Below the pieces are notes generated by a model. It saw only the letters and a list, made by a program, of their open reading frames with translations. It was not told the DNA's origin and made no database searches. Below, piece by piece: positions 33,292-38,625 of a stretch of DNA of 64,000 nucleotides (position 1 is its first letter; every line of letters starts with the position of its first letter). The stretch is from Burkholderiales bacterium. Lineage in GTDB: Bacteria > Pseudomonadota > Gammaproteobacteria > Burkholderiales > Ga0077523. The position numbers and the translations under genes were made by a program. Location of the stretch: contig JALHMS010000002.1 of the NCBI GenBank assembly GCA_022843925.1, positions 205,906 through 269,905 on the forward strand. The letters are read 5' to 3'.

Positions 33292-34647
33292 ATGGCCAAG
33301 TCCAAGACGCTCTACGCCTGCACCGAATGCGGTGGGGAATCCCCCAAGTGGCAGGGGCAGTGCCCCCACTGCAGCGCCTGGAACACCCTCGTGGAATCCG
33401 TCGGCGAGAGCAAGGCACCCGCGCGGTACCAGGGGCTGGCCGAGGCGAGCCGGGTCACCAGCCTGGCCGATGTCGAAGCCGAGGAAGCCCCGCGTCGTTC
33501 GACGCAGATCGGCGAGCTGGATCGCGTGCTGGGTGGCGGGCTTGTCCGCGGCGCCGTCGTCCTGATCGGCGGGGACCCCGGCATCGGCAAGTCGACGCTG
33601 CTGCTCCAGGCGCTCACGGGCATGGCGAAGTCGTGCAGCGTGCTTTACGTGAGCGGCGAGGAATCCGCGCAGCAGGTGGCGCTCCGGGCGCGGCGGCTCG
33701 GTCTCGAAGGCAGCCCCGTCGACCTGCTGGCCGAGATCCAGCTCGAGCGGATCCTCGCAACGCTAGAGACCCGCAAGCCGGAGATCGCGGTGATCGACTC
33801 GATCCAGACCGTGTACTCCGAGGCGCTCACGTCGGCGCCGGGCAGTGTGGCGCAGGTCCGCGAGTGCGCGGCGCAATTCACCCGCTTCGCGAAGTCGCGC
33901 GGAACGGCGCTGGTGCTCGTGGGTCACGTCACCAAGGAAGGTGCGATCGCCGGTCCGCGGGTGCTGGAGCACATGGTCGACTGTGTCCTGTACTTCGAGG
34001 GCGACTCGCATTCGAGCTTCCGCCTCGTGCGCGCCATCAAGAACCGATTCGGTGCGGCGAACGAACTGGGTGTGTTCGCCATGACGGAGAAGGGGCTGCG
34101 CGGCGTCTCGAACCCGTCCGCGCTATTCCTCTCGCAGCACGGCGGCGCGGTGCCGGGGTCGTGCGTAATGGTCACGCAGGAGGGAACGCGCCCGCTTCTC
34201 GTGGAGATCCAGGCGCTCGTCGACGAGGCCCATGCGCCGAACGCCCGGCGGCTGTCGGTGGGTCTCGAGCAGAACCGCCTCGCGATGCTGCTCGCGGTGC
34301 TGCACCGGCATGCGGGTATCGCGTGCTTCGATCAGGACGTCTTCGTGAACGCCGTGGGTGGCGTGAAGATCGACGAGCCTGCTGCCGACCTGCCCGTGCT
34401 GCTGGCGATCGTGTCGTCGCTGCGCAATCGCGCGCTGCCGGAGAAGCTCGTGTGCTTCGGCGAAGTGGGTCTCGCGGGCGAAGTGCGCGCCGTGCAGCGC
34501 GGCCAGGAGCGCCTGCGCGAGGCTGCAAAGCTCGGCTTCACGCGGGCCGTGATCCCGAAGGCGAACCAGCCCAAGACGCCGATCGAAGGGTTGACGACGA
34601 TCCCGGTGGAACGCATCGACGAAGCGGTCCAGGCGGTGCGGGGATAG
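33292..34647 (+). CDS. radA: DNA repair protein RadA
   Basis: This gene encodes 451 residues. Zinc finger CTECGGESPKWQGQCPHC near residues 10-27, Walker A GGDPGIGKST at 93-102, Walker B around VIDSIQTVY, the RadA motif KNRFG near 246, and a Lon-like C-terminal domain are all present. RadA drives branch migration in recombination. The lplT-alr-radA order is typical of betaproteobacteria, though here an extra gene lies between alr and radA. The array of palindromic repeats follows 28 bases after its stop. Confidence 0.96.
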   Translation: MAKSKTLYACTECGGESPKWQGQCPHCSAWNTLVESVGESKAPARYQGLAEASRVTSLADVEAEEAPRRSTQIGELDRVLGGGLVRGAVVLIGGDPGIGKSTLLLQALTGMAKSCSVLYVSGEESAQQVALRARRLGLEGSPVDLLAEIQLERILATLETRKPEIAVIDSIQTVYSEALTSAPGSVAQVRECAAQFTRFAKSRGTALVLVGHVTKEGAIAGPRVLEHMVDCVLYFEGDSHSSFRLVRAIKNRFGAANELGVFAMTEKGLRGVSNPSALFLSQHGGAVPGSCVMVTQEGTRPLLVEIQALVDEAHAPNARRLSVGLEQNRLAMLLAVLHRHAGIACFDQDVFVNAVGGVKIDEPAADLPVLLAIVSSLRNRALPEKLVCFGEVGLAGEVRAVQRGQERLREAAKLGFTRAVIPKANQPKTPIEGLTTIPVERIDEAVQAVRG

Positions 34648-34674
34648 GGGGCGGAACTTGGGACGGAGGTTCTC

Positions 34675-35117
34675 GTGGGTCGGGCTCCGCCCGACGCGGC
34701 GCAGGTGCGGTCACCGGGGTGGATCCATCGCCCGGGCGTCGGACTGCAGTCCGACCCACGAAAAGCGCCGGGCACTCGCGCCTCGCTGTGGATAGAGGTC
34801 TGCGTGGGTCGGGCTCCGCCCGACGCGGCGTCAGCGTGGACACTGCGGCGCATCCATCGCCCGGGCGTCGGACTGCAGTCCGACCCACGAAAAGCGCCGG
34901 GCACTCGCGCCTCGCTGTGGATAGAGGTCTGCGTGGGTCGGGCTCCGCCCGACGCGGCGTCAGCGTGGGCACTGCGGCGCATCCATCGCCCGGGCGTCGG
35001 ACTGCAGTCCGACCCACGAAAAGCGCCGGGCACTCGCGCCTCGCTGTGGATAGAGGTCTGCGTGGGTCGGGCTCCGCCCGACGCGGCGCAGGCGTGGGCA
35101 CCCGGGTGGATCCATCG
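34675..35117. repeat. Tandem array of 129-base units each with two REP-type palindromes
   Basis: Units begin at 34675, 34804, 34933 and 35062 (spacing 129 bases; three complete, one partial of about 56 bases). Each has an 85-base block bounded by GTGGGTCGG and CCGACCCAC, holding two hairpins: GTCGGGC-TCC-GCCCGAC (34679-34695 in unit 1) and the perfect 18-base palindrome GTCGGACTGCAGTCCGAC (34738-34755), then a 44-base spacer with CTCGCTGTGGATAGAGGTC. Such paired, inverted REP sequences are called BIMEs. It fills the 493 bases between radA (34648) and the cyclase (35141). Because 129 is divisible by three, long repetitive ORFs appear but look non-coding. No REP-associated (Y1) transposase gene is nearby. 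Confidence 0.88.
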
Positions 35118-35140
35118 AAGCCCCCTGAATCCGCGCCGCC

Positions 35141-37006
35141 TCACGCCCCGGCGATCCTGCACAAGCCCTTGTCCGCCGCCCGTGCCGCCGTCGATGCGCG
35201 GCGCGCCGCGAGCAGCATTGCCTCCGCCGACGGGTAGTGGGTCGTGCTCACCGCGATCCCGGTGCTCGCGCTTACCGAGAGATCCCGTCCGTCGATCCGC
35301 ATGGGCTCCGCCAGCATCGCTCCGACGCGTTCGGCGATGCGTACGGCCGCTTCTCCCGCGCTCGCCGCCGTCTGGGCCGTATCGAGTGGATAGCCTTCGC
35401 GCAGATCGGTGAGCAACACGGCGAACTCGTCGCCGCCGGCGCGCGTCACCGTCGTGCCCGGGCCCTTGAGCACCTTGAAGCGGCGCGCCATCTGCGCGAG
35501 CGCGCGGTCGCCGAAGTCCCGGCCGAAGCGCGCGTTGATCTCCCCGAAGTTGTCGAGGTCCACCCACAGCACCGCGAACGGATAGCCCCACAGACGCGTC
35601 TGGTCGAGGACGAACCCCAGGCGGTCGTCGAAGATGGCCTTGCTCGCAAGCCCTGTGCGCGCGTCGAACCACAGGCGGCGCTTCGCCTCCTCCTCGGCGC
35701 CGCGTCGCGCGCTGACGTCCGTGATGAAGCCTTCGAGGGCGAGGAGGTCGCCGGTGGACGAAAAGACGCCCTTGCCCTGCTCCCACACCCACTTGACCTC
35801 GCCCGCGGCATCGACGATGCGGTACGAGAGCTGGAAGCCCTTGCTCTGGGCGAGCTGCGTCTCCACGAGGGCCCAGACGAACTCGCGGTCCTCCGGATGG
35901 ATGAGGTCCCCGAAAGCCACGCGGGTGTTGTCGACGATGTCGCGCGCCTCGTAGCCCGTCAGCTCGGAGCAGCCGTCGCTCACCCATTCCATGGTCCAGT
36001 CCCGGTCGTGCCGGCCGCGGTAGACCATGCCCGGTACGTTGTCGAGCAGGGTGTTGAGATGCCGCCGGCTCGAGCGCAACTGCTCCTCACGCTGCTTGCG
36101 GCGCGTCACCTCCGTGAGCGAGCCCACGACCACCGGCGCTTCGTCGCCCGCCAGACTGAAGGCGCGGGCCCGCAGTTCGACCCAATGGAGCGTGTCGTCG
36201 CCGGCGATGAGTCGGACCTCCATCAGCAGGTGATCGAGTGCGCCTCCCGCCACCGATTGCAGCCGCGCTTCCGCCTCCTTCTGCTCGTCCGGATGCAGAT
36301 GCGCGACCAGCGGCTGGCCGAGGGCCTTGGCGATCGGGTGCCCGGTGAGCCTTCGCCAGGCAGCGTTGACGAAGGTGAAGCGCGCACCCGCATCCAGCTG
36401 GAATATCACTTGCTCGATACGATCGACCAACTCGGGCGTGCTGTCGTCGACCTCGGCGCGGTGGACCGGCGAGGCAAGCGTCACCCCCAGTTGCACGAAG
36501 AAGGTGTCGGGGATGGGCGAGGTCGTGGAAACACGGACTTCCGACCGCAGGAGCGTCGCGTCCGCACGGGTGAGACGAAGGTGCGCGCCCACCGGCGTAC
36601 CGCCGTCCCGGGCCTCCTGAAGGAGCGCTGCGCAGCGATCGTGGTCGAGTGGATGCACCAGGTTGGTGAAGGGCATGCCCACAATCTGATCATCGCGGCC
36701 CGCGAGGCCGATGATCTCGAGGAAGGCGCGGTTCGCGAAAATCACCGTCCGGCCCGACAGGACCGCGGCCGGTGTGGGCAGATCCTCGGCGAGCTGCCGG
36801 CCCCAGGCGCGCTGCTGGCCCGTGTCGAGGTCCGAAGCCGGCGTCGGCGCATGGCCGCGGCGGCGGTAGCCGGCCAGCAGGAAGAGGGCCCAGCAGAACA
36901 GCACCACGAGCGGTAGACCCCAGGCCACGTCCCGGTCGTACCAGCTTCCGATGATGATGGCGCACACGAGCGTGAGGCCCCATGCCGAGAACAGGTACAG
37001 CTGCAT
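35141..37006 (-). CDS. PAS-GGDEF diguanylate cyclase, membrane-bound
   Basis: This gene encodes 621 residues. Two N-terminal spans (about 2-46) lead into three PAS/PAC blocks (about 75-180, 195-320 and 330-455). The GGDEF domain (about 465-610) has an intact AGGDEFAVLL site, so it should make c-di-GMP; the upstream RxxD inhibitory site is not evident and no EAL domain follows. The start at 37006 is the ATG before MQLYLFSAWGL; an upstream GTG extends into basic, low-quality sequence. Its start overlaps the divergent histidine kinase by 25 bases. Confidence 0.92.
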   Translation of the reverse strand: MQLYLFSAWGLTLVCAIIIGSWYDRDVAWGLPLVVLFCWALFLLAGYRRRGHAPTPASDLDTGQQRAWGRQLAEDLPTPAAVLSGRTVIFANRAFLEIIGLAGRDDQIVGMPFTNLVHPLDHDRCAALLQEARDGGTPVGAHLRLTRADATLLRSEVRVSTTSPIPDTFFVQLGVTLASPVHRAEVDDSTPELVDRIEQVIFQLDAGARFTFVNAAWRRLTGHPIAKALGQPLVAHLHPDEQKEAEARLQSVAGGALDHLLMEVRLIAGDDTLHWVELRARAFSLAGDEAPVVVGSLTEVTRRKQREEQLRSSRRHLNTLLDNVPGMVYRGRHDRDWTMEWVSDGCSELTGYEARDIVDNTRVAFGDLIHPEDREFVWALVETQLAQSKGFQLSYRIVDAAGEVKWVWEQGKGVFSSTGDLLALEGFITDVSARRGAEEEAKRRLWFDARTGLASKAIFDDRLGFVLDQTRLWGYPFAVLWVDLDNFGEINARFGRDFGDRALAQMARRFKVLKGPGTTVTRAGGDEFAVLLTDLREGYPLDTAQTAASAGEAAVRIAERVGAMLAEPMRIDGRDLSVSASTGIAVSTTHYPSAEAMLLAARRASTAARAADKGLCRIAGA

Positions 37007-38625
37007 CCTTGCCTCCGTTGCGGACCGGTCGCGTGCTCGCGTCCTATCCGCTGTTCTGGGCGCTCTCCGGCTTGTGCGCCATCGTCTGCGTCGCACCGGC
37101 GCTGATGCTCACCGGGTCGGTTCTGCTCGCGGACTTCACGCTGGACGGATTGCGCGATCTCGAAGCGGCCTGGCGCGTGTCGTCCGCGGTCCCGGTCGAC
37201 GCCGGCGATGCGACATCCCGCAACCCTGCGCAAGCCCTGCGCCAGATCGTCGAATCGCGACAGGCGCAGACGCTGCTTCTCCAGTGCCTCTGCATGGTGT
37301 TGACGATCGCCGTGGCCGCCGGCCTCGCATGCCGGGGGTGGTCGGTCCTGGTGCGGCGCGTCGACAGCGCCCTGTCGCTTCTGCCCCCGGGCACCCCTGT
37401 GGCATCGGGCGACGAGATCGATCGGCTCACCCAGGCCGTGATCCGGCTCGCGGCCCGCCGCGCCGGGACCGATGCCGAGGCCGACTGGCAGCGGGGCTTC
37501 AATGCCGAACTGGCAAGGCGCAATGCGGAGGACCTGCATTGCCTGAACCTCGTGGCCGAGCTGCTGGAGAGCGCCCCGCCTTCCGCGTTCACGATGGCGA
37601 AGGCGCTCGACGTGCTGGTGCACAAGCTCGGTGCCGGCGCCGCCGCGCTGCAGCTCGGCGTACATGCCCAGCGGGCGCTCCATTGCGAGGACGTCGTCGC
37701 GGCACCGCGGCTGCCGGTCTGTCTCGCCCACAGCCGGTTGCTCGCCGAGATCGGCGCGATGTCGATGCGGCAGGACATCGCCGCCGACGGCAGCGGGGTC
37801 CGCAGCCTCGTCGCCCCCATCCGGCGCGACGACGAGACCATCGCACTCCTTGTCGTCGAGGGGCCTGACGCCTTCGACTTCGACCCTGCGAGAGTCGTGC
37901 TGGTCCGCACGGTGGCGCGCCTGATCGCGCTGGCGCTGGTCGGCGTGAGCCGCGGGCACGAGGAAAGGCGGGTGGCGCTGCTGGAGGAACGGGCGGCGAT
38001 CGCGCGCGAGCTGCACGACTCCCTCGCGCAGTCGCTCGCATTCCTCAAGATCCAGGTGGCGCGTCTGCAGGTGGCGCTGCGCGAGGCGCCCGGGTCCGAG
38101 ACGACGGCGGCCGTGGCCTTCCAGGTGCGCGATGGCGTGTCGAGCGTCTACCGGCAGGTGAAGGAGCTGATCGCCGCGTTCCGAGTCCAGATGGGCAGCC
38201 GCGGCCTCGTCGAGGCCCTGCATCAGGCGGTCGCGGAGTTCGGTCAGAAAAGCGGCGGCATCGCCATCGCGCTCGACATCCGGATCGAGGGTTGTCGCCT
38301 CACGGTGAACGAGGAGTTCCATCTCCTGCAGGTGGTGCGCGAGGCGCTTTCGAACACGGTGCGCCACGCGCGGGCCACCCACGTGCAGGTGAGCGTCGCC
38401 ACCCTCCCCGGGGGCGCGGTCCTTGCAAGCGTGGACGACGATGGCAAGGGGTTCCTTCCGGTGACGGGCGAGATTCCGCACTACGGCCTCGCCATCATGC
38501 GCGAGCGCGCGCAGTCCCTGGGCGGGCATCTGCAGGTGGTGCCGTTGCCGGCCGGCGGCACGCGCGTCTGCCTGGAATTCGTGCCCGAATCGATGGCGCC
38601 GGAACGCGCCGCGCGAGGTCTCTGA
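36982..38625 (+). CDS. NarX/UhpB-type sensor histidine kinase
   Basis: This gene encodes 547 residues from ATG 36982; TTG codons at 37009 and 37018 are alternative starts that would avoid overlap with the divergent cyclase. Membrane segments lie near residues 25-55 and 95-120. A GAF-like region (about 190-315) is followed by the HisKA_3 H-box ERAAIARELHDSLAQSLAFLKIQ (His near 343) and HATPase with REALSNTVRHAR, DDDGKGF and HYGLAIMRERAQSLGG. The last residues are one base from the NarL-type regulator gene. The signal is unknown; nitrogen sources at 39-55 kb are possible. Confidence 0.92.
   Translation: MPRTGTAASLPPLRTGRVLASYPLFWALSGLCAIVCVAPALMLTGSVLLADFTLDGLRDLEAAWRVSSAVPVDAGDATSRNPAQALRQIVESRQAQTLLLQCLCMVLTIAVAAGLACRGWSVLVRRVDSALSLLPPGTPVASGDEIDRLTQAVIRLAARRAGTDAEADWQRGFNAELARRNAEDLHCLNLVAELLESAPPSAFTMAKALDVLVHKLGAGAAALQLGVHAQRALHCEDVVAAPRLPVCLAHSRLLAEIGAMSMRQDIAADGSGVRSLVAPIRRDDETIALLVVEGPDAFDFDPARVVLVRTVARLIALALVGVSRGHEERRVALLEERAAIARELHDSLAQSLAFLKIQVARLQVALREAPGSETTAAVAFQVRDGVSSVYRQVKELIAAFRVQMGSRGLVEALHQAVAEFGQKSGGIAIALDIRIEGCRLTVNEEFHLLQVVREALSNTVRHARATHVQVSVATLPGGAVLASVDDDGKGFLPVTGEIPHYGLAIMRERAQSLGGHLQVVPLPAGGTRVCLEFVPESMAPERAARGL

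Follow-up and report, generated by a model that had tools for sequence, protein, structure and literature searches.

A 3.5-unit tandem array of GTGG-tagged REPIN/BIME elements in a convergent radA-GGDEF gap, with different copy number in the sister genome

The repeats between radA and a GGDEF-type gene very probably form a tandem array of 3.5 units of an abundant GTGG-tagged REPIN/BIME family, a non-autonomous hairpin-pair element. The array belongs to a known type, the BIME-2-like tandem REPIN array, and by itself it is an ordinary tandem BIME. REPIN hairpin pairs are a common type of bacterial genomic parasite, and the case bears on an open question, the origin of ordered REPIN arrays. The genome is useful in this respect, since most of its sampled hairpins stand in arrays, the linkers move together with the units, and gain and loss of units can be counted site by site against a sister genome. 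The window, that is, the whole 64-kb stretch of DNA that was analysed (G000:C2:205906-269905, within a 5.57-Mb draft genome), holds one array of this family only.

TRF reported a single array at 34666-35117 (period 129, 3.5 copies, 94% matches, score 770), and hairpin A (GTGGGTCGGGCTCCGCCCGAC) started at 34675, 34804, 34933 and 35062, in exact steps of 129 bases. Both results agree with the first-pass annotation, which had described a 129-base array of three complete units and part of a fourth. Each of the three complete units is composed of an 85-base inverted pair of hairpins, A and B, and a 44-base linker; the proposed division of the period into 3 x 43 is therefore without support. The units stand head to tail with alternating REP orientation, as in BIME-2. 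The features are the following.

33292..34647, plus strand: radA, 3' end towards the array
34675..34759, plus strand: REPIN/BIME unit 1, 85 bp (hairpin A 34675-34695, spacer, hairpin B 34738-34759)
34760..34803, plus strand: 44-bp linker 1, private to the radA-GGDEF locus, the same sequence in all three copies
34804..34888, plus strand: REPIN/BIME unit 2, on which the hairpins were folded
34889..34932, plus strand: 44-bp linker 2
34933..35017, plus strand: REPIN/BIME unit 3
35018..35061, plus strand: 44-bp linker 3
35062..35117, plus strand: partial unit 4, hairpin A and 35 spacer bases, without hairpin B
35141..37096, minus strand: GGDEF-type (diguanylate cyclase) gene, 3' end towards the array

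We take the first of these genes to be radA, the name given in the first-pass annotation, and the last is presumably a GGDEF-type diguanylate cyclase. The two genes converge on a gap of 493 bp, which is mostly occupied by the array, and the array is free of N joints. The two hairpins proposed for each unit were borne out by folding, as A and B both folded better than shuffled sequences (z of -3.5 and -3.1). The z was -2.2 for the whole 85-base pair and an unremarkable -1.15 for the full 129-base unit. When the GGDEF gene was compared with viral contigs, four pattern stretches were returned with no relative among them.

The assignment to a family rests on the rest of the genome. Absence of the repeat block elsewhere had been named in advance as an argument against a REP family; the pattern GTGGGTCGRGCN{1,6}GCYCGAC matched 779 hairpins exactly (399 + 380) genome-wide and had no match in either of two reversed controls. 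A tag of the REP kind, GTGG, stands outside the GTCGRGC..GCYCGAC stem. Within this stem, the variable pair (the base after GTGGGTCG and the base before CGAC) was A-T in 270, G-C in 225 and another combination in 7 of the 502 hairpins counted at 52 loci, with the window left out. The stem is thus maintained via changes on both sides, since the pair is almost always A-T or G-C (495/502). Inverted pairs were regular in size as well, 195 of 206 +/- pairs spanning 85-87 bp among the pairs listed, which were those of the 15 commonest length classes. Moreover, the hairpins are high in copy number, mainly intergenic and close to gene 3' ends, with dnaE2 as the exception, and dozens of similar arrays of the family are present. 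On contigs C1-C3, which served as the unbiased sample, clusters of three or more held 85 of the 94 exact hairpins, so that the statement that REP pairs usually disperse singly is untrue here. The 53 own-genome loci (window included) contained 73 clusters with 524 REPs, and 322 of their 392 same-strand spacings were 129-131; these cluster statistics are biased, because the loci were chosen for matching repeats or for holding a Y1 transposase. At eight loci (L071, L080, L084, L085, L088, L089, L090 and L093), TRF scored higher at a two- or three-unit period. These higher-order periods of ~260 or ~390 bases are satellite-like, and several such arrays have N joints.

The units of the window array were then compared with one another. 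Units 2 and 3 differed at 1 of 129 positions, linker included, while units 1 and 2 showed 10 differences, every one in unit positions 28-48, that is, within 21 spacer bases (34702-34722 of the window and the equivalents). As had been claimed, the outer units carry GGGTGGATCCATCG (34717 and 35104) and the inner units GGCGCATCCATCG (34847 and 34976). Furthermore, GGGTGGATCC is common to units 1 and 4, and GGCGCATCCATCG is common to units 2 and 3 and the first sister unit; exact GGGTGGATCCATCG was not present outside the window among the loci scanned. It looks as if the outer-unit version of the spacer had been exchanged between the first and last units, across the inner ones. The simplest order of events would be an A-B-linker-A ancestor, growth, a putative spacer exchange of the outer units, and finally an inner-unit duplication, which is placed last because units 2 and 3 are near-identical.

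The nearest relative was G006, the MAG Betaproteobacteria bacterium Ga0077532 (protein identity 95%), and no literature was found under Ga0077532. Its radA-GGDEF flanks were 93-94% identical to those of the window, and its gap held A-B-linker-A only, 1.5 units compared to 3.5 here, ending in a half unit at the same point as the window array. TRF returned no tandem array in the G006 gap. The 1.5 units at this site indicate that the copy number has altered since the split of the two genomes, a change that fits an expansion here or a contraction in the sister alike. Recent slippage or recombination, as the first-pass annotation had suggested, is compatible with these data, which do not separate the two. 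The family unit was matched in 2 of 60 genomes, G000 (the genome of the window) and G006, with at most 14 candidates scored per genome, and 'no match' holds at that sensitivity. At the radA locus of eight other genomes of the genus, no array of such kind was reported by TRF; one of the eight loci had two short runs with periods of 18 and 21. No GGDEF neighbour lay within ~1.5 kb of radA in these eight genomes, a comparison that rests on TRF and tblastn results, and a clear RadA was missing in 2 of 12 genus genomes. Hence identical copy number in distant relatives, which had been expected to argue against recent amplification, did not occur. Because the relatives offered no empty radA-GGDEF site, the insertion of the REPIN itself is something we only infer.

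Length differences between the two genomes (G006 minus G000) were also determined at other sites. Where both flanks could be placed and neither genome had an N, the differences were -257 bp at the radA site, -126 at C4:194745, +125 at C48:1184, +28 at C2:56999 and +40 at C15:46030. Three of these five N-free sites were near whole units and two were non-unit, and we count the latter against the explanation preferred here. The values at C1:325650 (-128), C13:97315 (-556) and C15:6712 (-22) are uncertain owing to N joints in G000. At C18, where one flank was placed, the array lengths were equal (732 and 735 bp) and 91 bases separated the left edge from the end of the contig. Two further sites, C3:336046 and one on C8, were left out (ambiguous placement or different structure). 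One flank comparison covered eight arrays and the left flank of a ninth; both flanks were unambiguous in G006 for 3 of the 8 (C1:325650, C2:56999 and C4:194745); for the others, no flank or a single flank was placed, or the second was doubtful.

The linkers bear on how the arrays spread. Across 35 other arrays the mean identity was 73% for linkers and 78% for REPIN spacers. In the forward direction the window linker resembled the family linker at the level of shuffles (49% vs 47%), and homology was rejected. Its reverse complement scored 1.3, above all 40 shuffles (maximum -0.1), and that of the orthologous sister linker scored -4.3 against a shuffle maximum of -0.8 (mean -7.1, sd 3.2). Inverted-orientation homology was not accepted, because the orthologous linker failed this comparison. 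The private linker points to local amplification after one insertion: the window array may have grown in place from a single element, capturing local DNA. Elsewhere, the linker ran past the terminal hairpin at 7 of 46 tag-outward array ends and was absent at 39 of 46, a continuation being called at 15 bases or more and a score over 8, while 30 of 39 half-REPIN ends ran on into REPIN. Accordingly, most arrays would appear to have spread in segments that are bounded by hairpins and enclose the linker. A wider proposal, in which the arrays of this lineage would spread as REP-to-REP segments of several units with a captured linker and the amplification or binding machinery would hold the unit at ~130 bases, is speculative and has a low probability. 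Its ~130-base part draws on the tendency of two unrelated REPIN families and of arrays with unrelated linkers towards ~126-136, and on in-gene spacings that are multiples of three.

Y1-transposase matches were found three times in the genome, all on contigs other than that of the window, which fits the remark that no RAYT is encoded in the window; one of them is flanked by the GTGG family. This C33 RAYT (L097 3676-4128, minus strand) matched NF047646, REP-associated tyrosine transposase, with 117 bits (cut-off 80), and it lies between the GTGG-family arrays C33:34612-35151 and C33:35759-36018. Another RAYT, on C27 (122 bits), stands amid repeats of a second family (GTAGGAGSGG..CATGG..). Each of the two stands beside its own REP family and may act on it. 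In the sister G006, which is 89% complete and still has the family, the best match to the C33 RAYT was 42% identical and the gene itself was not found. The second REPIN family, unrelated to the first, forms tandem arrays too, at L107 (G000:C27:56000-61730), L092, L100 and L104.

Given the C33 RAYT, with arrays of the family to either side, we propose that a REPIN may have entered the convergent gap by RAYT-mediated single-strand transfer, and this RAYT may catalyse the mobility of the family. A first duplication would then have yielded A-B-linker-A, the state of the sister species and the putative ancestral one. Growth here would have added complete 129-base units, either by replication slippage or by unequal recombination, with the inner unit duplicated last. 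Within-array divergence in 33 arrays was 2.3% for hairpin A, 3.8% for hairpin B, 11.0% for the spacer and 8.9% for the linker. This pattern may arise if concerted retention or repair acts on the hairpins and leaves spacer and linker to drift.

Comparisons with published systems refer to the available parts of the cited papers. As in E. coli BIME-2, two inverted REP types alternate head to tail in intergenic gaps, and the same arrays occur on both sides of a RAYT gene (PMC2817692, PMC6379681); the hairpin and tag sequence (GTGG here, GTAG there), the ~130-base unit and the host are different. Pseudomonas fluorescens SBW25 is described as having near-identical REPINs in tandem with flanking sequence and clusters beside RAYT genes, which resembles the present case (PMC3116915). 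However, single REPINs predominate in SBW25, where 16 ordered tandem clusters are described (PMC3116915), whereas 85/94 hairpins were clustered here (C1-C3), and the linkers here, that of the window excepted, are mostly common to several loci. The BIMEs of Stenotrophomonas likewise combine modules of two inverted REPs head to tail with complementary stem mutations, and the window array shares with them private inter-REP segments (PMC2817692). Those segments are reported to be non-homologous and of variable length (PMC2817692), in contrast to the linkers here, mostly 43-46 bp and mostly homologous. The GTGG variant also recalls the GTAG-tagged REP families, including the mostly GTGG-tagged GTAG-20 of O. 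terrae, a likeness at the level of the published descriptions (PMC3733652). Tandem reiteration with flanking DNA, a preference for convergent and unidirectional gaps and a REP-tagged dnaE2 are shared with these families as described, while the in-frame dnaE2 inserts are much larger here (PMC3733652).

Most probably the array has a near-neutral effect on the cell. At convergent 3' ends an array can persist and leave the genes unbroken. Modest effects on mRNA 3' ends are possible, and so is gyrase binding, by analogy with E. coli BIME-2. A stronger functional reading, in which the array is a bidirectional transcription boundary whose hairpins end or stabilise the radA and GGDEF transcripts and whose copy number is selected, seems to us unlikely. 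The location in a 493-bp convergent gap and the stable folding of the hairpins favour it, as does the report that REPs facilitate Rho-dependent termination (PMC2817692). The contexts of arrays with at least four REPs also favour it, as they do the main reading: 34 of 46 were classified, 15 as convergent, 16 as tandem and 3 as divergent, compared with 37 convergent among 203 adjacent gene pairs at the same loci, array-bearing pairs included. These contexts depend on a home-made gene caller, 12 of 46 arrays were unclassified, and some arrays overlap spurious long frames. However, such a bias is the general REP pattern, REPs being described as lying mainly between unidirectional and convergent genes (PMC3733652), and radA is kept without such an array in eight relatives and with 1.5 units in the sister. 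Moreover, no site with a GC-rich hairpin and T-run was predicted in 34500-35300, and the transcription-terminating role suggested as possible in the first-pass annotation found no intrinsic terminator to rest on. No promoter was predicted in the array. Rfam returned nothing above the gathering score in 34400-35400, with one sub-threshold match of 21.3 bits against 100.

Somewhat less likely again is a landing array for gyrase or a nucleoid protein like E. coli BIME-2, the footprint of the protein setting the ~130-base period. Gyrase sites at E. coli BIME-2 (PMC6379681, PMC2817692) would support it, as would the constant period of 129-131 at the fetched loci (322/392, above) and the same-strand spacings of the second, unrelated family, 25 of 40 of which were 126-136 in the fetched loci (21/29 outside dnaE2). 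Against it, the linkers are homologous across arrays, with the mean identity of 73%, and descent can therefore explain much of the constancy of the period. It is very improbable that a single element was falsely multiplied in assembly. Two observations would speak for this: repeat arrays contain or adjoin N joints at 12 of 53 own-genome loci (11 with 10 N, one with 100 N), and the distance from a contig end to a family hairpin is no more than 200 bases in at least 12 cases. Against it, the window array is without N, its units bear distinguishing bases, and 1.5 units were assembled independently in the sister. The loci with N joints were L063, L070, L071, L078, L083-L086, L093, L101, L107 and L172. 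These joints and contig ends indicate that the arrays break the assembly, and long arrays may be under-counted. The tandem REPIN array of an abundant family remains our preferred reading of the radA site, and the first-pass interpretation was for the most part borne out.

Members of both families also occur in frame within dnaE2 (L201 1627-6828, G000:C37:18626-23827), a 1733-aa open frame that matched PRK05672 (error-prone DNA polymerase, model length 1047) with 1437 bits against a cut-off of 939. Measured from the FAELHC motif, the protein has 1726 aa in G000, 1441 in G006 and 1060 in G003, whose 6-kb dnaE2 locus held no REP of either family, and G000 exceeds this REP-free relative by 666 aa. 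The extra length lies in three REP-holding regions, the middle one with family 1 and the other two with family 2. Within sites, all REP spacings were divisible by three (17/17 in G000 and 4/4 in G006), counts that are not independent because of common ancestry; among the between-site spacings listed (two per genome), one in each genome was a non-multiple. Outside dnaE2, the families use spacings of 130, 131 or 136 besides 129 and 135. DnaE2 is already listed among REP-tagged proteins, with larger REP-encoded regions of 43-82 aa (PMC3733652), and the decorated gene is therefore of a known kind. The size of the inserts and their frame-preserving tandem growth go beyond what the available part of that paper describes. 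It was the only work found on in-frame REP insertions in an error-prone polymerase or dnaE2, others being judged by title. The in-frame arrays provide a natural selection test of tolerated unit sizes, and they make testable the preference of REPs for DNA-repair genes that was suggested earlier. At the second dnaE2 site, G000 was 193 aa longer than G006, about three 62-aa units. The dN/dS between G000 and G006, by home-made counting, was 0.048 over 1017 codons of the core and 0.63 over 383 codons of the alignable inserts, whose boundaries were set by motifs and include native loop residues. The dnaE2 core is under purifying selection.
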